From a virus, in the IMG/VR virus record IMGVR_UViG_3300033984_000205, positions 30,106-94,105 of that record: a DNA stretch of 64,000 bases. One strand, written 5' to 3'. Below, piece after piece: positions 1 to 61,063 of this stretch (the stretch's first letter is position 1; each line of letters opens with the position of its first letter). Position numbers and translations under genes: made by a program. The notes below the pieces were generated by a model that saw only the letters and a program-made list of their open reading frames with translations, had not been told where the DNA came from and did not search any database.

Positions 1-3000
1 AGAAGACTTAATATAAACAATTCTGTTTACATCTTGTTCTTTATTGATATAACTACCTGTGTGTACAGGTTTAATAGGTTGAAAGACAACATTAAGTTCT
101 TCTTTAGTTAAGTCTTCTCCTTTAGCTAATTTATCATTAATCACTTTTAACTCTTTATCAGAGAGTCTTCCCATTCTGTGAAGAATAGAAACATGTTCTG
201 CAGCTGTAGAATACTCTTGAGCATCAGTAGATTCAATATCAAAATAAGCAGAAAGATCTGAAAATTCTTTAGACAAACTTTCTCTAAGTTCTTTCATATC
301 ATTCTTAGCTTTAGCATAAAGTTCAGGAGTAATATCAACAATTCCTTGTTCATATCTATCTATTATTTTAGCAGCTACATCATGCTTTTCAAGTAAAGGA
401 GTAGCTTTAGTTAAAGCTTCTTCTCCATAGTAGTTTTTAATTAAGTACTCAGCATTTTCAGTAATATCTATAGAGTCATTTAAGAATATCTGATTATACT
501 CTTCATTTCTAGAGTTAGCTATTTTATTACCAGGAGCAATAAGTAAAGCCAACCTTTTACCTAAGTTAGTACCAATTTGTTTATTGATAGAGATATAAGA
601 CTCCTCATTAGAAAAATCCCAAGCATTGATCTTAGTTTTTTCTTGTTCATTAGTCTCTTTATTTAATCTTTGTTCTGTAAATAATTTGTCTTGACTGTAG
701 TTTGCTATATCTCCAGCAAACACTTTAAACATTTCAGCATTAAATAATAGATTGTTTAATACAAAATCATTTATAGCTAAATCATAATCAATAGAAGGGT
801 CTCTTCCTGCTTCTGTAAAATAGTTTTTATCCAACATTTTAGAAGTAGTCTTACCATTTTTAGTTTCAGTATAAGGGGCCCAAGATTCTTTTTTAAACTC
901 TACTTCTTGTTGTACTACATCTTCAATAGCATTTTGAAAAGTCTCTCTAAACTCTTCTACAGCTTCATCTATAGTATAATTTAAAGTAGGACTTGCTAAT
1001 TTTTCTATAATTCTTACTCCATCTTCAGCTTTTAAAGTATTCATTATAGGAAGTAAGTGAAACAATTGAGCACCTTTGTCATAGTTTTTAATATTAGTTA
1101 CTCCTACTTCTCTATGGAATTTTACAATTCTTTTAAGTTCAGGTAAAACTAATCTATCAAATAACATTTCTTTTAATTGTGTTTTAAATCCTGAGATAGT
1201 ACCATCTTCTTCTACTTTAAATAAAAGAGATTTATCAGCCATAAAATCAAAAACAGCAGTCTCCATAAAAAGACCTGTAGTTTTATCAGACATAGTAGGA
1301 GAAAGCATATGAGCCATTCTCATAGTTATACCATCTATTTTAGTACCTGCAGGTAGTTTATCTACTTTTCTATCTTGAAATCCTGTTAAAGCATTCATAT
1401 CAAAATCTGTATCACTTAAATCAGTTAAACTTGCTTTAGTAGGGCTATCTCCTTTTTCTTTAATAGCAGTCAAAGCAACATGATGCACTTGAAACATGCT
1501 TTTAAATGCAGGCACATTTTTTAGTAAGTCAAGAATAACAGAATCTTCTGAAAAAGATAAAGACTGTAAGTCATCTATCAAAGTATTACTTTCATCAACA
1601 GCAGACCTTTTTAAGTTCTGAACCATATCAGTTACATACTTTGTAGGTACAAGAGTAGAAATGTTTTTACCAGTATCTCTAAAAGATAAAGCAATAAGAT
1701 TAGGATTGTATTTAGTTTCAACAGCACTCAAAGCTTTTGTAACTCCTCCTAGATTAGAAAATACATTTGTATTCACATCAAATTTCATTCCTGTTGGATC
1801 ATTTTTAGCTTTAGTTAAAAAGTCTACAATAGGTACAAATAATCCTCCTGCATTGACATTATACAAGTCTTTGAAAGGTACATCTCTTTGAGCATTAAAA
1901 ATTCCTTTTTCATATATCTGAGTCCAAGCAGCATCTTGAAAACTAAAGCCTAATTTACCTAGCCAATTTCTTAAATCTGTTTGAGGAACTGTAGTATGAT
2001 CTTTATCCCAAGATTTAAACTCTTCTATTAATTTATCTGCAAAAGCAACATCTACAGTTCCATCTTTTTTATAAAGACCTGAAACCATATTATCATTTTT
2101 CCATTTGTTATTAATAATTCTAGAAGCTTCATTAGCATTAGTGTTGTACATTTTAAGTGTTACTCCATTAGGACCACTTTCATACATACCAAATTTAGAA
2201 GACAAAGTATGTCTAACAAAATTGTAAACAAATTCATTTTTAATTTGTTGATCAGCTTTGTCTAGTTTACTAAGTATATCTTTTACAAAAGCAGACTCAC
2301 TTTGTTTTAATTTTTCAATTAACTTATCATAGTCAGACTCTACTTCAGACCCCATACTAAGAACTTTACTTAGCTCATTGTAAACATCATTAAAACTCAT
2401 GTAAGATGGTAACCCTAAATATGTTGTTTGAGCAACACCTTTAGCATCATACCTATTTATTTTGTGTAAAAATCTTCTAAGTCTATATGAAGCCTTAGCT
2501 TTACCTGACTCTTCAATAGATTCTTTGTTATAATCTTTTACATTCTGAGTTTCTTCATCTATATTAGTACTTTCTGTTTCTTTTTCTTTTTCAACTAACT
2601 GAGTTTGTTTTTGAATATCAGTAAAAGCTTTATCAAATAAAGGAGTAAAGTTTGCTTTAATATCTTTTATGTTTTCAAGTGTAGTTGAATAAGCTTCTTT
2701 CAATAAAGCAACTCTTTCATCTGTAGAGTTACTATTATTTAATTCAGTAAGCAAAGTTCTTAATTGAGTTTCAAGACCTACTAGTATAGGATCTAACTCA
2801 TTCTTAATATCTTCTTTTAACTTAACTTTAGAAACATTAGATTTATATTCTATACTTACTTTTTCTCCAATATTATGTACAATAAATTGTCTGATAGCTT
2901 TTTCTTGAAGAATATTTAAGTTACCTAATGTCTTAAACAAGTTAGCTAACTTAGAAGTATTCTCAATCATATCATCTCTTAGTTCAAACTCATCTAAACT

Positions 3001-6000
3001 AATACCTAAATTATTTAATAACTCAACATGTTTATCAATGTCTAAAGGTTCAGCAACTAGTTCTTTAGCTAATTCTACATTTTCAGTTTGTTGAATTTCA
3101 ATTTGTTGAGGACCTGTTACTTCTACAACTGGAGTATAAGAGACAGTAAAAGTAGGTTGAGCTACAGTAGCATACACAGGTTTTTCTTCTGTACCTACAT
3201 TAACAGATTTAAGATTACTTTTTAAAGTATCTTTTAAATAATCTTCATAATTTTTATTACTAGAAATTACTTTACCATTTACAATAGACACTATCTTGGC
3301 TTTTTTATTTCCAAGTAATGCTAAGTTAGTGTGTTGTTTAATATTAGGATAGTTTTCTTTATCAAATAAAACTTTCTTGTAAGATTCAAGTTTATCCCCT
3401 TGAATTGAAGTTTGAAAAAAAGTTTTAATAAAAGATACTAATTCTAAGTGACTTCCAATATTAAATCCCATATTTTTATTAATATCTGATAAAATCTTTT
3501 CAGCATTTTCTTTAGTCATTTCAAATTCAGTGCCTTTAATAAGATCTGTTCTTCCTTCTAAAGTCATATAGGCTGATAAAGCCCATCTTGCAGTTTCAAT
3601 TTCATCATCAGGTACTGCTCTAAGCACAGGATAAGCTCTATACTGAGGTACTATTTCTCCTTTATCATTTTTAATAGTTCCTATTTGAGAAACCATCCAA
3701 GTATGTCCATTAGTTCCATCTTTTCCAGCCATAAATAACTGTCTGTCAATTATTTTTCCTTGAAATTTGGCACTAAAAGTTGTATGTAAATCTGTCCCTC
3801 TTTGAACTACTAAGACTGCTTGAGGATTAGATTCTCTTACACTTATTGCAGGTTGAGTTTCAGGAATTTTAATAGGAGAACCTTCAGCACTCCTAGTTAA
3901 TGTAACTTCTCTTAGACCATTATTAATATTATCTCTTAATGCTCTAGCATTGTCAACACCTTTCTGAATATGATTACTCCAAATAGGATCTTGTGCAGCT
4001 CTCTTAGGATTTTTAGAACTACCTGCTGGATTTTTAATAGTGTAAGCATTAAACTTATCTACTTCTTGTACATACCCTAATCTTTTACCTTTTGAGTCTG
4101 TATAAAACATAGGAACTTTATCTCTAAACTCTTGAGTCTCTTTAAAGTTGGGATTAGTTTTTTCTCTTTCAGCTAACCATTTGTCAAAAGTGGTCATTAT
4201 AACTTTACCTTCTGCATCTCTACCATTAGTAGCTGGGATTTGACTCCAAATAGAAGGGTCAGCAATTTCAATAGAAAGTTTAGTTCCTGTTGGATTTAAG
4301 TTTGGATTAATTAAATCTCTTGGGTCTATTAAATCTCCTTCTTTATAAGCCAAATCAGTACCTTGAACAGTAACTTGAACACCTCCTTCAGTATTTACTG
4401 TAGTAGTACTCATAGCAGAGTAACCTATTCTAGGCGTAATATTAATGTTATTTGTTATTTCTTCTTCAGTTTGAGCAGTTTGAACTATAGCCATATTTTC
4501 TTCATCATAACCAATAGTAGTTACATTGTTTTGTAAAACTTGCTCTTCAATTTTTTCAGACTGTTCTGAAAATTCAGTATAAGGACTTTTATCTTCTACA
4601 GGCACAACAGTTTCAAAAATGTTTTGCATGTTCTTCATATAATCAGTTACTGCAGTTTCATAGGGATTAAATAAATCATTAAATATAGCTTGAAAATCTG
4701 TAGACTCATAACCATTTTCTTGCCATCCTCTAACCATGTGAGGAAATAAATTTCTTAAAGCTTTTTTATCTGGTGAATATTTATAAGTCTGCTCAGCAAA
4801 TTCTTTAAAAGTTGGTCTTCTACCTAGTCTTTCAGAAATTGTATCTACAGAGTCCTTAGTAAAAGCTTTGATTGATGCTAATTGTTCAGGAGCATAACTA
4901 TTTTTAGTATCAATAGATGCATCAAATTCAGAGTCATCTACAATAATTCCAGTAGTATCTGACTTTTCATTTTCTAATAAAGGGGTTATTAACTTGTCGT
5001 ATTTATCATAGATTTTATTAAGGCTAACATGACCCTCTTCTCCAAGTCCAGGATTGTTATCATATTCTTTTTGCTCTTCAGCTCTTAAATCAGCAATTTG
5101 CTCTTTATTAGTTTTAGTTTCTTCTTTTGTAGAAGTATTAACTACAGGAGTAGGTAACTCTGCAGGTATAGGAAACACATCTAAAAGACTGTCTACACTT
5201 ACTCTCACAAAATTTTGATACTCTGCTTCAGCCACATCATCTATAATAGTTACAGTAGCATCACTAGGAACTACAATAGGACTTTCTTCTGTAAAATCAG
5301 TTTCTCCTTGATAACCAGCTTGTTCTGCTCTTTTTAATAAAAGAGATTGTAGATTAGCTGCTTCAAGTTTTTCTTTATTTCTAAGTTGATTTAATTCTAA
5401 AAGACCTTTTCTTTTATTAGCAACCTCTTCAAAAAAAGTATCTGCAACTCTGCCTTTGTATTGAGTTTTAATTCTTGCTATTGTTTCATCAACTAATTCA
5501 GGAGTCTCTTCTAATTGATTATTATAATTATATGTAGCATTTTCAGGAGTGACTATATCATTTTGATAATCTCTTAAAGTCTGCTCATAAATTTTTTCAA
5601 TTCCTTTTTTAGTTTCTAATCTTTCTTCATATTCAGGACTAGTTTCATCATTAATGTCTTTGTTTAATTGACTATTATCCATTTGGAAACCAGCTTTTTC
5701 CATAAGAAGTCCTCCAAATAAACTTACTCTTGTAAGATTTTCTTCATTTAGTCCTTGAATAAAATCATTATATTCTTGTTCTTTCTCAGGAGATTCAAAC
5801 TCTTCTTTAGTTAAAAGAGTATCAATATCATAATCAATACTTAAACCTTTTCTTTGGATAAAAGCATCAATGTCTTCTTTAGCTCCTTCTTTTTGTTTTA
5901 CTAACTCTTCATCAATAAGTTTTATAGTTTGATCATTAGCTAGTTTTCTTTCTGATAAATTAAAGATTGTAGCAAAATTATCTTTTTCAGAATGTTTATT

Positions 6001-8454
6001 ATAGATTTCCATTAAACCATCAATTCTTGCTGTAGCTAAAGCAAGATTCTGTTTAGTAGAAACACTCATATCTGGATTACTTTGTATTGCTTCTAAGTTC
6101 TTTTTAAAGTTTTCTACAGTCCCTGTTCTAATAGCCATAGCTGCCAAGTTAGTAAACTTGTTTTGTTCAAGTCTATCTGCTTTAACATTGGAGTCTGCAG
6201 TGTTTTCTCTTCTTAAAGTCATAATCTTATGATCATAATCTAAAGGACTATATATAGTACCTCCAGTATTCATAAGAATATTATTAGCAACATCATCATC
6301 AGTAACAGCAGCATCAAGAGCTTTATACATCTCTTTTAACCTAGCTTTATCATTCATGTAGTTTCTTCCTCTACCTACCATACCTATTCCTCCAAAAGCA
6401 ACTCCTTGGATTAAAGTTTGTGCAACTACATCTCTATAAAAAGAGGTATCTTTTAAACTTTCTAATTGTTGAGCATAGTCTTGTTTATAAGTAGGTACAA
6501 ATTGATTCCAAATTTCTTCTGCAACTTCTCCAGGAAGACTATGAATTAAACTTGCTCTACCTGTATGAGCAATAGCATTGCCTGATAACTTACCAAGAGA
6601 TAAGTTATTTACAATATTTCTAGCATAGTTGTATCCTTTAATAGGTGCTGATACAGTTTTACCAAAACCACTTTGTTCAAATTTTTCAACTCCTGTTGTA
6701 ATTCCTTTTGCAATTTTATTGCCAATACCTGTCTTAGCTAATTTTCTCATTAGCATATTATTGGTAATACCTGGCAAAGCACTTCCTACATATTTCTCAG
6801 AAAAGTTTTCTTTTGCATTTTCAGAAAAACCATACCATAAAGATTCTCCCCAAGTGTTAGGTTTGTAAAGAGTATCAAACTCTTCAGTAATATTTTCTAA
6901 TCCTGCCTTAAGACCTTCTAGTTTTTGTTCTTCTTTATCAGTCCTTTTGTCTTTTTTCTCAAGCTCTGCAATATCATATTTTATAAGGTCTGCTTTTTTA
7001 TTGAAGTCTTTTTTATAATAGTTATATCTTTGTTCTCCAACTATTAATTTTTGTTTACCATTTTCATCAGTAATAAATTCCATATTACCTGTCTTAGCTT
7101 TAGCAGCCATAGCATAAGTACCAGGAGCAAGTAAAGAAGATACACCAATATTAGCAGCTCCTCCAGCAGCTTTAGCCCCTAGATTAGATAATAAAAACTT
7201 ACTTCCTCCTTCTCTCCATGCTTGTTTTAATGTAGTTTTAGCTGCATCTTTTATAAGAGCATTTGCAATAGTTTCTTCTGCAGCTCCTGCAATTCCTCCT
7301 GAAAGTAAAGTTGCTTCCATAAAAACAGCAGAAGTGGCTACTCCTTGTCCCCAACTGTAACCTAACTTGTTTTCAAATAGATTTTTAGCAGCTAACTCTT
7401 GAGTGTGTCCTTCAGCTTCTAAAAGACTTTGTTCATTTTCTGAAAGTCTTTCTTTAGGTTTATAGTTAATATTTTTACTATTAAGAACTTTTTCTTTTTC
7501 AATTCTATCTGCTTTATCTTTTATCTTAGCAACAGTTAAAGCATCTCCCATACCATATAAACCTACTGTAAGAAGTTCTTTTTTCTGAGTACCAAATCCA
7601 TCCCAAAATCCTGCTTTACCTGATGTGTAATCATCAATTTGAGTAATTAAATCATTGTATTTTGCAGCAGCTCTTAAAGACATGTCCATATCTGCAGATT
7701 GCCCAGGAGCAGTATCAAAATCTGTTCTGAGTTGTCCTTTATGTTCTTGTTGCCACTTTAAATATTCAGGAGATTTAGTATGATTAAGAGTAGCTTGTTT
7801 GTGTCTTTCTTGAGCCTTTTTTGCTTCTTGTTCATATTGAACTCTAAGTTCTGTTAAAGCAGGTTGTAAATCTTTTCTTTGTTGAGCAGTAAGGTCATTA
7901 TATTGTTGTTGTTCTTTTTTATTAAGTCCTATTCTAGTGTCACTAAAAGTATCATTAAAAAGATTAGAGATTTTACCAACTACAGCCATAATAGGAACTG
8001 CAAAATTCAAATTATATGTACCTTTTGGTCCACTTTTATCAATAAAAGAAGCATCAGATCTTGAGTATGCAGTGAAAGGGTTTTTTTCTTCTAGTGCTTT
8101 TATTTTTCCAGCATTGTCTAATACAGACAAAGCTTTTTCAACTCCATTCTTTTCAGCTACTTTAGTAAGAACTCTGTCTTTTTTTACAGCTTGTTCTTTA
8201 GCAAGTTGCTTCATTTCTTTCTTAGCTTCAGAAGTCTCATATTCAATTTTATCTCTTTCTCCTTTATCCACATAGGTAGAAAGTAGTTGAGCACTAATGC
8301 TATTATTAGAAGCACTTTGAGATCTTAACTCTTCAAAACTTAATCCTACTCCTGATTCAACCCCTGTACCAGCAGAAAGACTTTCAGGTTCTTGTTGAAT
8401 TTCTTGTTTTGCTTTGGCAAAAGCTGATAAAATTTTTCTTGATGGAAATGTCAT
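1..8454 (-). CDS. Giant virion protein, N-terminal 2818 residues (cargo/RNA polymerase-type giant protein), partial
   Basis: The frame opens with ATG at 8454 and stays open to base 1, so the stop lies outside the window. It begins MTFPSRKILSAFAKAKQEIQ and is mostly charged, helical and Lys/Glu-rich. Two Gly/Ala-rich hydrophobic stretches lie near residues 368-403 and 418-451. The last third, including a segment reading YLGLPSYMSFNDVYNEL, looks globular. Crassvirales carry giant proteins at this place, downstream of the tail genes; they are packaged in the capsid and ejected, and one is the virion RNA polymerase with a DxDGD motif. No DxDGD motif is visible here, so the catalytic part may lie beyond base 1 or in another giant gene. 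It follows two probable internal proteins in the same transcriptional direction. The class is fairly sure from size and position; a polymerase role is inferred. Confidence 0.7.
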   Translation of the reverse strand, partial: MTFPSRKILSAFAKAKQEIQQEPESLSAGTGVESGVGLSFEELRSQSASNNSISAQLLSTYVDKGERDKIEYETSEAKKEMKQLAKEQAVKKDRVLTKVAEKNGVEKALSVLDNAGKIKALEEKNPFTAYSRSDASFIDKSGPKGTYNLNFAVPIMAVVGKISNLFNDTFSDTRIGLNKKEQQQYNDLTAQQRKDLQPALTELRVQYEQEAKKAQERHKQATLNHTKSPEYLKWQQEHKGQLRTDFDTAPGQSADMDMSLRAAAKYNDLITQIDDYTSGKAGFWDGFGTQKKELLTVGLYGMGDALTVAKIKDKADRIEKEKVLNSKNINYKPKERLSENEQSLLEAEGHTQELAAKNLFENKLGYSWGQGVATSAVFMEATLLSGGIAGAAEETIANALIKDAAKTTLKQAWREGGSKFLLSNLGAKAAGGAANIGVSSLLAPGTYAMAAKAKTGNMEFITDENGKQKLIVGEQRYNYYKKDFNKKADLIKYDIAELEKKDKRTDKEEQKLEGLKAGLENITEEFDTLYKPNTWGESLWYGFSENAKENFSEKYVGSALPGITNNMLMRKLAKTGIGNKIAKGITTGVEKFEQSGFGKTVSAPIKGYNYARNIVNNLSLGKLSGNAIAHTGRASLIHSLPGEVAEEIWNQFVPTYKQDYAQQLESLKDTSFYRDVVAQTLIQGVAFGGIGMVGRGRNYMNDKARLKEMYKALDAAVTDDDVANNILMNTGGTIYSPLDYDHKIMTLRRENTADSNVKADRLEQNKFTNLAAMAIRTGTVENFKKNLEAIQSNPDMSVSTKQNLALATARIDGLMEIYNKHSEKDNFATIFNLSERKLANDQTIKLIDEELVKQKEGAKEDIDAFIQRKGLSIDYDIDTLLTKEEFESPEKEQEYNDFIQGLNEENLTRVSLFGGLLMEKAGFQMDNSQLNKDINDETSPEYEERLETKKGIEKIYEQTLRDYQNDIVTPENATYNYNNQLEETPELVDETIARIKTQYKGRVADTFFEEVANKRKGLLELNQLRNKEKLEAANLQSLLLKRAEQAGYQGETDFTEESPIVVPSDATVTIIDDVAEAEYQNFVRVSVDSLLDVFPIPAELPTPVVNTSTKEETKTNKEQIADLRAEEQKEYDNNPGLGEEGHVSLNKIYDKYDKLITPLLENEKSDTTGIIVDDSEFDASIDTKNSYAPEQLASIKAFTKDSVDTISERLGRRPTFKEFAEQTYKYSPDKKALRNLFPHMVRGWQENGYESTDFQAIFNDLFNPYETAVTDYMKNMQNIFETVVPVEDKSPYTEFSEQSEKIEEQVLQNNVTTIGYDEENMAIVQTAQTEEEITNNINITPRIGYSAMSTTTVNTEGGVQVTVQGTDLAYKEGDLIDPRDLINPNLNPTGTKLSIEIADPSIWSQIPATNGRDAEGKVIMTTFDKWLAEREKTNPNFKETQEFRDKVPMFYTDSKGKRLGYVQEVDKFNAYTIKNPAGSSKNPKRAAQDPIWSNHIQKGVDNARALRDNINNGLREVTLTRSAEGSPIKIPETQPAISVRESNPQAVLVVQRGTDLHTTFSAKFQGKIIDRQLFMAGKDGTNGHTWMVSQIGTIKNDKGEIVPQYRAYPVLRAVPDDEIETARWALSAYMTLEGRTDLIKGTEFEMTKENAEKILSDINKNMGFNIGSHLELVSFIKTFFQTSIQGDKLESYKKVLFDKENYPNIKQHTNLALLGNKKAKIVSIVNGKVISSNKNYEDYLKDTLKSNLKSVNVGTEEKPVYATVAQPTFTVSYTPVVEVTGPQQIEIQQTENVELAKELVAEPLDIDKHVELLNNLGISLDEFELRDDMIENTSKLANLFKTLGNLNILQEKAIRQFIVHNIGEKVSIEYKSNVSKVKLKEDIKNELDPILVGLETQLRTLLTELNNSNSTDERVALLKEAYSTTLENIKDIKANFTPLFDKAFTDIQKQTQLVEKEKETESTNIDEETQNVKDYNKESIEESGKAKASYRLRRFLHKINRYDAKGVAQTTYLGLPSYMSFNDVYNELSKVLSMGSEVESDYDKLIEKLKQSESAFVKDILSKLDKADQQIKNEFVYNFVRHTLSSKFGMYESGPNGVTLKMYNTNANEASRIINNKWKNDNMVSGLYKKDGTVDVAFADKLIEEFKSWDKDHTTVPQTDLRNWLGKLGFSFQDAAWTQIYEKGIFNAQRDVPFKDLYNVNAGGLFVPIVDFLTKAKNDPTGMKFDVNTNVFSNLGGVTKALSAVETKYNPNLIALSFRDTGKNISTLVPTKYVTDMVQNLKRSAVDESNTLIDDLQSLSFSEDSVILDLLKNVPAFKSMFQVHHVALTAIKEKGDSPTKASLTDLSDTDFDMNALTGFQDRKVDKLPAGTKIDGITMRMAHMLSPTMSDKTTGLFMETAVFDFMADKSLLFKVEEDGTISGFKTQLKEMLFDRLVLPELKRIVKFHREVGVTNIKNYDKGAQLFHLLPIMNTLKAEDGVRIIEKLASPTLNYTIDEAVEEFRETFQNAIEDVVQQEVEFKKESWAPYTETKNGKTTSKMLDKNYFTEAGRDPSIDYDLAINDFVLNNLLFNAEMFKVFAGDIANYSQDKLFTEQRLNKETNEQEKTKINAWDFSNEESYISINKQIGTNLGKRLALLIAPGNKIANSRNEEYNQIFLNDSIDITENAEYLIKNYYGEEALTKATPLLEKHDVAAKIIDRYEQGIVDITPELYAKAKNDMKELRESLSKEFSDLSAYFDIESTDAQEYSTAAEHVSILHRMGRLSDKELKVINDKLAKGEDLTKEELNVVFQPIKPVHTGSYINKEQDVNRIVYIKSS

Positions 8455-29968: not shown

Positions 29969-30553
29969 TTATTTCTCTACTTGAAAGACAATCTTTTTTA
30001 TACTGTTAACTACTTTAAGAAATCTTTTTGCAATATCAAATCCCATCTTTTTAAAATTCTCAAATACAATAGAGTAGAACTCTATTGCACAACAGAAACC
30101 AGTAAAGATTAAAGTTACAGTTAGATCTTCTGTACTTACATTATCAAACTTAAAAGTCTTTATAAAGAAGACCTTTTCAATTCCCCAAACTCCTAAGATA
30201 GCACTAGCATAAGTGAAGGCTTTTACAGCTGAGAGTTTAAGTTTATCTGAAGAAATTAAAGCTGTACCTTTAAGGGAAGGGTCTAATTTTTCTTCATCTT
30301 TTTTAATTTTCCAAGATGCTATTATACCTGTTATAAAATCTAGTATAAAAAATAATAATAAAAGTAACAAAGCTTTTTGGATTGAAGTTAAAACAGAAGC
30401 TACAACTATTGTACTTCCTGATATAACTCCTGATGGACTTGATGCCATTGCTTTTAAGTTAATTCCTAACTTAAGAAAATACTTAGTGTATAGACTTAAC
30501 CATTCCATAATGCTGCTTTTTAATATTATTATAATGTTGTATGACTTTTTCAT
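29969..30553 (-). CDS. Phage holin (holin_4-like membrane protein), 194 aa
   Basis: A central hydrophobic stretch (KALLLLLLFFILDFITGIIA) followed by SWKIKKDEEKLDPSL is the hallmark of the phage_holin_4 / toxin-secretion holin family, with the conserved D-F-x-T-G-I-I-A-S-W. Additional hydrophobic segments lie near residues 50-60 and 135-165, giving about three to four membrane spans. Lysis would follow pore formation in the inner membrane. The GH108 endolysin is far away, at 51920-52498, so the lysis genes are not adjacent. An alternative start at the ATG at 30508 (MEWLSLYTKYF) gives a more typical N-terminus; the longer form adds 15 residues. The family is confident. Confidence 0.8.
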   Translation of the reverse strand: MKKSYNIIIILKSSIMEWLSLYTKYFLKLGINLKAMASSPSGVISGSTIVVASVLTSIQKALLLLLLFFILDFITGIIASWKIKKDEEKLDPSLKGTALISSDKLKLSAVKAFTYASAILGVWGIEKVFFIKTFKFDNVSTEDLTVTLIFTGFCCAIEFYSIVFENFKKMGFDIAKRFLKVVNSIKKIVFQVEK

Positions 30554-59365: not shown

Positions 59366-59720
59366 TAGGTTGGATTAAATTTAACGATAAGAGTATAAGG
59401 GAATAAATCTTCTATGGAAGTGTCCCTTTACCTCTTATTTATCCAACAAACTCTTAAAGTCTTAATCAGGATAGGAGAAGCTTCAGGAATCCTCCAAAAT
59501 TATATGTTAGTCACATTCCCACATTCCTGGTCACTGAAATAAGTTTATTCGCCTATTCTTAAAGTAGTGTATAAACAAGGTTAAGACTTTATCTTTTACT
59601 CTTATTAGTTATTAGAGTTGATACTATACTCAGCAGTAAACAAAGTATCTTAGTAAGAGTTTTTATTCTTTAGAGGCATATGGTGTAGTGGATTAAGTTT
59701 CCAAGCATACTAAAGAATTT
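59366..59720 (+). ncRNA. Unidentified highly structured RNA region
   Basis: No protein gene is seen, but several long perfect helices are present. Helix A: TTGGAT (59370-59375) with ATCCAA (59441-59446), ATAAGAG (59387-59393) with CTCTTAT (59432-59438), and AAGGGA (59397-59402) with TCCCTT (59423-59428). Helix B: AAAGTCTTAA (59456-59465) with TTAAGACTTT (59581-59590), enclosing CAGGAAT (59484-59490) with ATTCCTG (59523-59529). Helix C: GATACT with AGTATC near 59620-59650. Helix D: ATTCTTTAG (59665-59673) with CTAAAGAAT (59710-59718). The nested arrangement over about 350 bases suggests a structured RNA or a long processed leader of the tmRNA. I do not recognise its class. Confidence 0.5.
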
Positions 59721-59728
59721 TATTAATT

Positions 59729-60144
59729 GGGCCTGTCATGGTATTGATTAGGTATGTTATTTATTAGAAATCAGCACAGAGAGATAACTGTATAAAACTA
59801 AGGTGAATCATTTTAAATGGAAACACACAAGAGAATACCCAAGTACAAGCTAATATGGAGAAAGTATTTTCTCTTATCTCTTCAGTAGAAGTAGAACTAG
59901 CTGTGGCAGCTTAGCCAAAGAATAAGCAGATTAATACTCCCTTTTTCTATAGTATAGGGTAAAAGACTATAGTGGTGGATGTCTTCTGTTTACAGTTGAC
60001 CCTATTTCTTGCTGGTTAAGCAGAATTAAAAGATAAACATAACCAACTTGTTTGATAAGTGCAAGTATAAAATTGTATCAAAAAGCTGTATAAATTTCTA
60101 GTATTGAAGTATTTAAGACCTGGGTTCGATTCCCAGCAGGTCCA
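59729..60144 (+). ncRNA. ssrA: Phage-encoded tmRNA (transfer-messenger RNA)
   Basis: The ends form a 7-bp acceptor stem, GGGCCTG (59729-59735) with CAGGTCC (60137-60143), and discriminator A at 60144. The third pair is G3-U70, the alanine identity element required for tmRNA charging. The T arm is CTGGG-TTCGATT-CCCAG. The 5' end continues TCATGGTATTGATTAGG, like the tmRNA D-loop consensus. Helix 2 is visible: TATTT (59758-59762) with AAGTA (60107-60111), AGAAAT (59766-59771) with ATTTCT (60094-60099), CAGC with GCTG (60085-60088). A pseudoknot-like pair is ATAGGGT/ACCCTAT (59954 and 59998 areas). The tag frame ends GTA-GAA-CTA-GCT-GTG-GCA-GCT-TAG at 59891-59914 (likely tag VEVELAVAA). Genomic CTA follows; CCA must be added. 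Role: rescue of stalled ribosomes with proteolytic tagging. Confidence 0.88.
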
Positions 60145-60388
60145 CTACAAACATTGTCAGCAAGGCTCTCATCCTGTTGTATTCAAACAATATGTGCTTT
60201 TAAAGCTCTGAATATTGTAGTAATCCAGTAATAGACAAGTGCAGTACAGAGGTTTGGGTCAGAGTAATAGAAAGTGTTGGCTTCGCCTGATCTTTAAGAA
60301 AACCTCTCTGACTTTTAATTAACTAAAGGTAAATTTAAACAAAAATCAAATCATTAATCTGAGTATGGAATAGGTTATTACCTTTACT
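60145..60388 (+). other. Intergenic stretch between tmRNA and replication genes, structured
   Basis: No gene is seen. CAATAT (near 60188) can pair with ATATTG (near 60213), and GAGC/GCTC pairs occur nearby. The end of the stretch holds the terminator described separately. The last 50 bases contain the palindrome-like AGGT-TATT-ACCT near 60372, just before the start of the gene at 60389. Confidence 0.45.
60248..60318 (+). terminator. Long stem-loop, probable tmRNA terminator
   Basis: AGAGGTTT (60248-60255) pairs perfectly with AAACCTCT (60300-60307). The enclosed loop contains the small hairpin TTGGC-TTC-GCCTGA. It is followed by CTGACTTTTAATT. It lies about 100 bases after the 3' end of the tmRNA and fits an end of the RNA transcript. 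Confidence 0.6.
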
Positions 60389-61063
60389 ATGAAGTATTTA
60401 GAAAAATTAAATCACATTACCATGAACAATGTTTCAAACACACAAGAACAAGGAGTAAGAAAACAAATGTCTAAAAGCCCTTTAGAGGTTACAAGAGTAC
60501 ATGCAACTGCTTACCAAAAAGAGGGAACTCTAACTGCAGAAATTAAACAGACTGTGACTACAAAGTCATTTTACCCATCAAAGTCTGTAAGTAACAACTT
60601 AAAAGATAATCCATTCAGTACATCTGAGTTTGGTTTTTCTGAAAGTGAATACACTTCTGAAGAAAGAAGAGTTGCTTGGGTTGAAGCACCTATTGGTTCT
60701 ACTGTAGAATCTATGGTAGCTAGACTTGCTACTCTTCCTGAAGCTACTATTTACAAGATTTTAGCTAATCACCCTATCTTATCTGATAGTCAAGAGTATG
60801 CTATTGAAGCAGGATTGACTTCTAAAGAATCTATTGCTGATAAGCAAGCAGTAAGATATGGAGAAGGACATCCTCAAGCAGGACAACTGATTTTAGACAA
60901 AGCTGGTAAACCTCAGTACAAACAAACTTTCTTTAAAAGAGAGGCTAAAGAAGATGAAGATTTGAGAACTGCAGATCCTGTAGATTTCTATTCTACTTCT
61001 GAAATGAGAGTTGAATTAGCTGGGGTATTAATCCCAACTTCTGTAGCACAAGATGTGCTATAA
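60389..61063 (+). CDS. Conserved early protein preceding the replication genes, 224 aa
   Basis: Two starts are possible: ATG at 60389 (MKYLEKLNHITMNNVSNTQE) or the internal ATG at 60422 (MNNVSNTQEQGVRKQ). No ribosome-binding site decides. The protein is acidic to neutral with VEAPIGSTVESMVARLATLP and ATIYKILANHPILSDSQEYA. A terminator-like hairpin separates it from the helicase gene, so it is probably made in excess. Position before helicase, SSB-like and polymerase genes suggests a DNA-replication accessory protein. No family recognised. Confidence 0.6.
   Translation: MKYLEKLNHITMNNVSNTQEQGVRKQMSKSPLEVTRVHATAYQKEGTLTAEIKQTVTTKSFYPSKSVSNNLKDNPFSTSEFGFSESEYTSEERRVAWVEAPIGSTVESMVARLATLPEATIYKILANHPILSDSQEYAIEAGLTSKESIADKQAVRYGEGHPQAGQLILDKAGKPQYKQTFFKREAKEDEDLRTADPVDFYSTSEMRVELAGVLIPTSVAQDVL

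Follow-up and report, generated by a model that had tools for sequence, protein, structure and literature searches.

Identity and extent of the tmRNA gene

Does the phage of IMG/VR record IMGVR_UViG_3300033984_000205 carry a tmRNA gene of its own and, if it does, how is that gene related to those of the bacterial hosts and what would its product do? The question arises from a first-pass annotation of a 64,000-nucleotide stretch of the record (positions 30,106 to 94,105; hereafter the window), in which positions 59729-60144 had been read as a tmRNA. The covariance search that had been proposed as a check bore this reading out. The Rfam model RF00023 matched 59729-60147 on the plus strand over the whole model (cmscan; 51.8 bits, E 1.7e-17), a modest score that lies above the gathering score of 47 bits, and this was the sole RF00023 match in the 94,105-base virus record. 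ARAGORN, the other program proposed, called nothing at the window locus; it calls a tmRNA in the relatives L004, L007, L008, L011 and L012. The tRNA-like domain was found to be complete, with a 7-bp acceptor stem, G3-U70, a T arm and a discriminator A, and these elements, together with the D-loop-like segment, lie where they had been placed:

59729-60147, plus strand: one-piece tmRNA gene (ssrA), RF00023 match
59729-59735, plus strand: 5' strand of the acceptor stem, GGGCCTG, pairing with 60137-60143 and including G3-U70
59739-59752, plus strand: D-loop-like segment of the tRNA-like domain, TGGTATTGATTAGG (ACTGGTTTTGACA and others in relatives)
60120-60136, plus strand: T arm, CTGGG-TTCGATT-CCCAG, with a stem of five pairs that change in relatives
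60137-60144, plus strand: 3' strand of the acceptor stem, CAGGTCC (60137-60143), and discriminator A (60144)

Positions 59729-60144 make up the 416-nt mature RNA without CCA, which is unencoded (CTA follows). A simple pattern search found no Bacteroidota-type promoter near the gene. Just upstream, at 59665-59718, there is a hairpin-forming segment with a stretch resembling a tRNA D arm (TATGGTGTAGTGGATTAAG), and this segment is kept in L003 and L007.

RNA structure and covariation

Covariation was assessed on 77 distinct sequences, chosen by at least six of seven acceptor pairs and at least four of five T-stem pairs, with neither helix 2 nor the 3-70 G-U being required. Position 3-70 was G-U in all 77, in agreement with the alanine identity that had been claimed for this phage-borne RNA. 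Compensatory changes were seen at acceptor pairs 4-6 and at all T-stem pairs, although this support is partly selected, since pairing in these two stems was used in choosing the sequences. Helix 2 (8 + 10 + 4 pairs) was paired in 74-100% of the sequences, with pair types varying on both sides. The acceptor, T stem and helix 2 thus all covary in relatives, the very point on which the first-pass annotation had said beforehand that its reading could fail. Taken together, the universal G3-U70, the compensation in the acceptor and T stem, and the pairing of helix 2 argue that the window tmRNA is not a product of chance. The remaining structural elements are as follows:

59748-59775 (approximate), plus strand: 5' strand of helix 2, closing with CAGC, from compensatory changes in the 77 sequences
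59776-59791, plus strand: short hairpin ACAG-AGAGATAA-CTGT in place of pseudoknot 1, from pairing in extended forms
59936-59972, plus strand: possible pseudoknot of CCCT/AGGG with CTATAG/CTATAG, from the alignment by eye
59974-60002, plus strand: possible hairpin GGTGGA...TTGACCC in a conserved block, paired by eye
60009-60046, plus strand: possible last pseudoknot, read from the alignment by eye; some relatives have it and others do not
60086-60116 (approximate), plus strand: 3' strand of helix 2, from compensatory changes in the 77 sequences

For the short hairpin, the 21 forms with a longer linker all allow a fourth, outer pair around CAG-AGAGATAA-CTG, which may be A-T, C-G, G-C or T-A. Its loop also matches TTATCTCT in the window's own tag over exactly eight bases, a pairing noticed by eye that was taken as chance because it is absent from relatives. 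The later pseudoknots, judged by eye without pair counts, differ from phage to phage; by the same kind of inspection the 59936-59972 element is a plain hairpin in other members, and the shortest members seem to keep just two hairpins between the tag and helix 2. Four pseudoknots are typical of tmRNA but not universal.

The tag reading frame

An internal frame with a resume codon and a stop is present, its start being less certain than its end:

59819-59914, plus strand: tag frame GNTQENTQVQANMEKVFSLISSVEVELAVAA-TAG, 31 amino acids, with proposed resume codon GGA after TAAAT
59849-59857, plus strand: GCT AAT ATG, encoding A-N-M of the tag, found in 86 of 86 distinct tags

As the first-pass annotation had it, the frame ends in LAVAA followed by a stop, the TAG at 59912-59914. 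Reassignment of TAG or TGA, which would make this TAG readable, was considered and rejected; the main open reading frames nearly all end at the same place under either code, and the standard code was therefore taken to hold. From 130 loci, 86 distinct tag frames of 24-45 amino acids were collected. Five loci were left out, namely L066 and L134, whose frame lacks A-N-M, and three that run off the end of their stretch. Within the core Q-x-x-A-N-M, the residues Q, A, N and M were invariant in 86 of 86 tags, a figure that is partly selected with respect to A-N-M, since frames were admitted if they contained A-N-M or ended like a tag. The codons of the invariant Q, A and N nevertheless vary synonymously (GCT 72, GCA 9, GCC 4 and GCG 1 for A; AAC 54 and AAT 32 for N).

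Among single-base codon differences in 32 disjoint pairs, the synonymous share was 0.515 in the tag frame, compared with 0.269 and 0.157 in the two alternative frames, both of which hold stops in all 86 tags. A rough omega was lowest from Q to M (0.17), higher in the stretch right behind M (0.22) and at the C-terminus (0.31), and highest upstream of Q (0.59). Judging from these codon patterns, the tag frame is under protein-level selection, the Q-x-x-A-N-M core included. Translation is accordingly well supported from Q onward and weakly upstream of it, which makes the N-terminal residues of the tag less certain. The proposed resume codon, GGC, GGA or GAC, follows TAAAT, TAAAC or TAATT in 84 of the 86 tags; by eye this context matches TACAC-GGC in the host gene of Flavobacterium. 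An in-frame stop three codons before the proposed resume codon in 24 of the 86 leaves little room for a start further upstream.

The same data bear on a separate reading, namely that a small protein is translated from the ATG of A-N-M and that the tmRNA serves as its carrier. Such a protein would fit the ATG, which is invariant in all 86 tags, and the coding signal, which peaks from Q-x-x-A-N-M on; however, Q, A and N, which precede the ATG, are equally invariant through synonymous codons, and changes before M are still biased towards synonymous ones (0.41 versus 0.23 expected). We consider a separate protein very unlikely and regard the frame as a tmRNA tag. Its C-terminus is x-A-A in 79 of the 86 tags, which is the kind of end recognised by ClpXP in Escherichia coli.

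The phage and its relatives

The window virus had been called a crAss-like phage, and its portal, terminase and major head protein indeed fall in families of the crAss group (PHROG 6547, 6681 and 11589, respectively). By tblastn, the nearest named phages are the Flavobacterium phages Fpv1 and FpV4 (major head protein 81% and portal 61% identical), with matches extending to Bacteroides phages and crAssphages. In the record taxonomy, Fpv1 belongs to Fipvunavirus, a genus with no order and no placement in Crassvirales, and phi14:2 to Crassvirales, Steigviridae. Given the structural-protein families and the nearest relatives, the name crAss-like is fair in a broad sense. The first 8.4 kb of the window, empty at first sight, is taken up on the minus strand (1-8454) by one frame, at least 2,818 codons long, which continues past the left edge and would be a giant protein gene. 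Such genes are common in crAss-like phages.

Relatives of the gene downstream of the tmRNA (60389-61063) were found on seven contigs, and an Rfam tmRNA lay just upstream of it in all seven; one of them (L002) has the same gene as the window. A blastn search of the phage collection at E up to 1 gave 57 records, of which 39 were Flavobacterium or Cellulophaga phages or cr130_1, mostly without a tmRNA annotation. A crAss-group portal was detected in 34 of 38 records (the window's own, 33 other contigs and four named phages). Contigs found through the portal are mostly fragments, and the genome search missed a tmRNA in G155 that cmscan finds (L005). In L004 and L005 the tmRNA is followed directly by some 90 bases that form a tRNA-like element (AGGGAAA...TTTCCCT). 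The T arm of this element is good, ARAGORN does not call it, and its putative anticodon is not preceded by U.

A tmRNA lineage specific to phages

Among the phage tmRNAs, the sequence that links helix 2 to the resume codon hardly varies, and provides a signature suited to exact-pattern scans:

59777-59807, plus strand: phage-lineage signature CAGAGAGATAACTG-N-AAACTAAGGTGAA

The exact pattern turned up in at least 119 viral contigs. The same search of 84,980 species genomes of bacteria and archaea, which could miss a diverged bacterial copy, gave no match. Host tmRNAs, in turn, were found in 142 of 150 Flavobacteriaceae genomes, scoring 117-180 bits, and the tags that ARAGORN read in them were GENNYALAA or close variants of equal length, L194 being the one exception, in which another frame was read.

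The phage RNA shares with this one-piece host ssrA its tRNA-like domain (ACTGGTTTTGACAG in many members), G3-U70, helix 2, the resume codon context, a C-terminal Ala-Ala and an unencoded CCA. It differs in having a short hairpin where the host RNA has pseudoknot 1, in its reduced or swapped later pseudoknots, and in the tag. The first-pass annotation had called the tag divergent, and rightly so in that it ends in AVAA rather than ALAA; this nonetheless understated the difference, since the window tag has 31 amino acids against nine in the host and belongs to a phage-only tag family.

These comparisons also bear on whether the gene might be a recent capture from a host, or the remnant of an att site, without function for the phage. 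tmRNA genes are common integration sites at which copies are left, and one Flavobacteriaceae genome (G131) carries a damaged second copy at 6762-7173 (L207), possibly left by an integrated element; this copy had been a candidate for the phage type, but is of the host type. The window gene, however, is complete and encodes a different tag; at about 50 bits, against 117-180 for host tmRNAs, it is distant from them, and it is retained under selection in many phages. Capture or remnant status is thus most improbable, and the evidence points to a tmRNA lineage of the phages themselves.

Named members of this lineage, recognised by signature, A-N-M tag and helix 2, are the Cellulophaga phages Calle_1, phi38:1 and phi14:2 and the Flavobacterium phages Fpv1 and FpV4, all with tags that differ from the window tag in sequence and length. 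The single tmRNA annotation here is that of Calle, and the genes in Fpv1, phi14:2 and phi38:1 are unannotated as such.

Mosaic evolution of the tags

The histories of tag and portal disagree, both in pairwise identities and in the tree. The portals of L049 and L062 are 29% identical and their tags 94% identical in DNA, while L078 is 91-95% identical to L058 and L049 in the portal and 47-49% in the tag. The rank correlation between portal and tag identity was 0.33, over pairs that are not independent. The tag of L098 looks by eye like a join of modules, its first half resembling L086 and its second half L018. Considering this disagreement and the module-like tags, tmRNA genes, whole or in part, were probably swapped between distantly related phages.

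Relation to known tmRNAs

It had been stated that no tmRNA was described for crAss-like phages. This is incorrect at the level of records, since tmRNAs are annotated in cr130_1 and in Calle_1, and the Calle paper counts the latter (PMC8776804). The cr130_1 gene (L010, NC_055901.1, 2942-3332), although also from a crAss-like phage, is a permuted, two-piece tmRNA (RF04321, 54.4 bits) with the tag DNYNVVDYTHVA, and is probably of separate origin. It may point to a host outside Bacteroidota; the portal frame of this phage has 12 in-frame TAG codons. Mycobacteriophage tmRNAs, such as that of EniyanLRS (tag AVDTDVDFAMWEAELASDLVAA), are likewise phage-borne with a longer-than-usual tag, but belong to another host phylum, and the EniyanLRS tag lacks the A-N-M core.

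tmRNAs are on record for 402 of 18,146 phage genomes (PMC9004378), and the 2025 tmRNA database, which covers the RefSeq viruses of October 2023 and may hold some of the present isolates, has 10 amino acids as its commonest tag length (PMC11915505). The same database paper records group I introns in bacterial tmRNA genes. In the human-gut crAss-like phage cr128_1 (L322, MT774392.1, 700-2018), we observed an unannotated tmRNA-like gene in which a group I intron (RF00028, 86.1 bits) containing an antisense open reading frame interrupts the T loop; its acceptor is GGGGCAT/ATGCTCC with G3-U, and its tag is short (GNTYRAAA).

A phage-only tmRNA lineage with a long conserved tag was not found described in the open-access literature searched, and a virus-only branch with a long, conserved and mosaic tag is thus seemingly undescribed. 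Compared with the first reading, the window tmRNA stands out more by its tag and its spread, but has more precedent in crAss-like phages.

Proposed function

The reading that we consider very likely, from comparison of the sequences, is a phage tmRNA that works and belongs to a lineage confined to phages. It would be charged with alanine by the host alanyl-tRNA synthetase, and host SmpB and EF-Tu would carry it to ribosomes that have stalled on broken messages in the course of infection. A search of 29 phage records, most of them contigs of at least 70 kb, gave no SmpB, so that the SmpB of the host would have to serve. Translation would then resume on a tag chosen by the phage, and the ribosome would be freed. 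Since most members end in x-Ala-Ala, the tagged fragments would, as judged from these last residues, probably go to ClpXP-type host proteases. A different protease fate for tagged proteins and rescue while host mRNA is being destroyed, both suggested in the first-pass annotation, may also apply.

The want of an SmpB in the window phage would also suit a decoy role, in which the RNA sequesters the SmpB of the host or obstructs its trans-translation. Such a role has been proposed for a tag-less, tmRNA-like RNA of mycobacteriophage DS6A, and RNA of that type inhibits tmRNA (PMC4131195). A decoy needs no tag, however, whereas the phage frame is open, long and under protein-level selection; we regard such a role as very unlikely, and a working tmRNA remains the preferred reading.

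The conserved core, Q-x-x-A-N-M..V..L, probably adds a second recognition step; a protease spacer or a contest with host factors would fit as well. The A-N-M core is apparently a helix-like stretch. It is possible, but doubtful at present, that the tag is more than a decay mark, with the core binding a specific partner from the host or the phage, and module exchange between phages reflecting a contest with host factors.

These findings show that an RNA central to bacterial quality control has a virus-only branch, which is widespread in crAss-like phages. As standard annotation misses many of its members, phage tmRNAs are undercounted. The question is raised of why phages keep a tag three to five times the host length with an invariant core, and it is testable, since the members include isolates with culturable hosts (Flavobacterium psychrophilum and Cellulophaga baltica). 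If the core does bind a partner, the tmRNA would let the phage append a functional peptide of its choice to each of the broken proteins that an infected cell makes.
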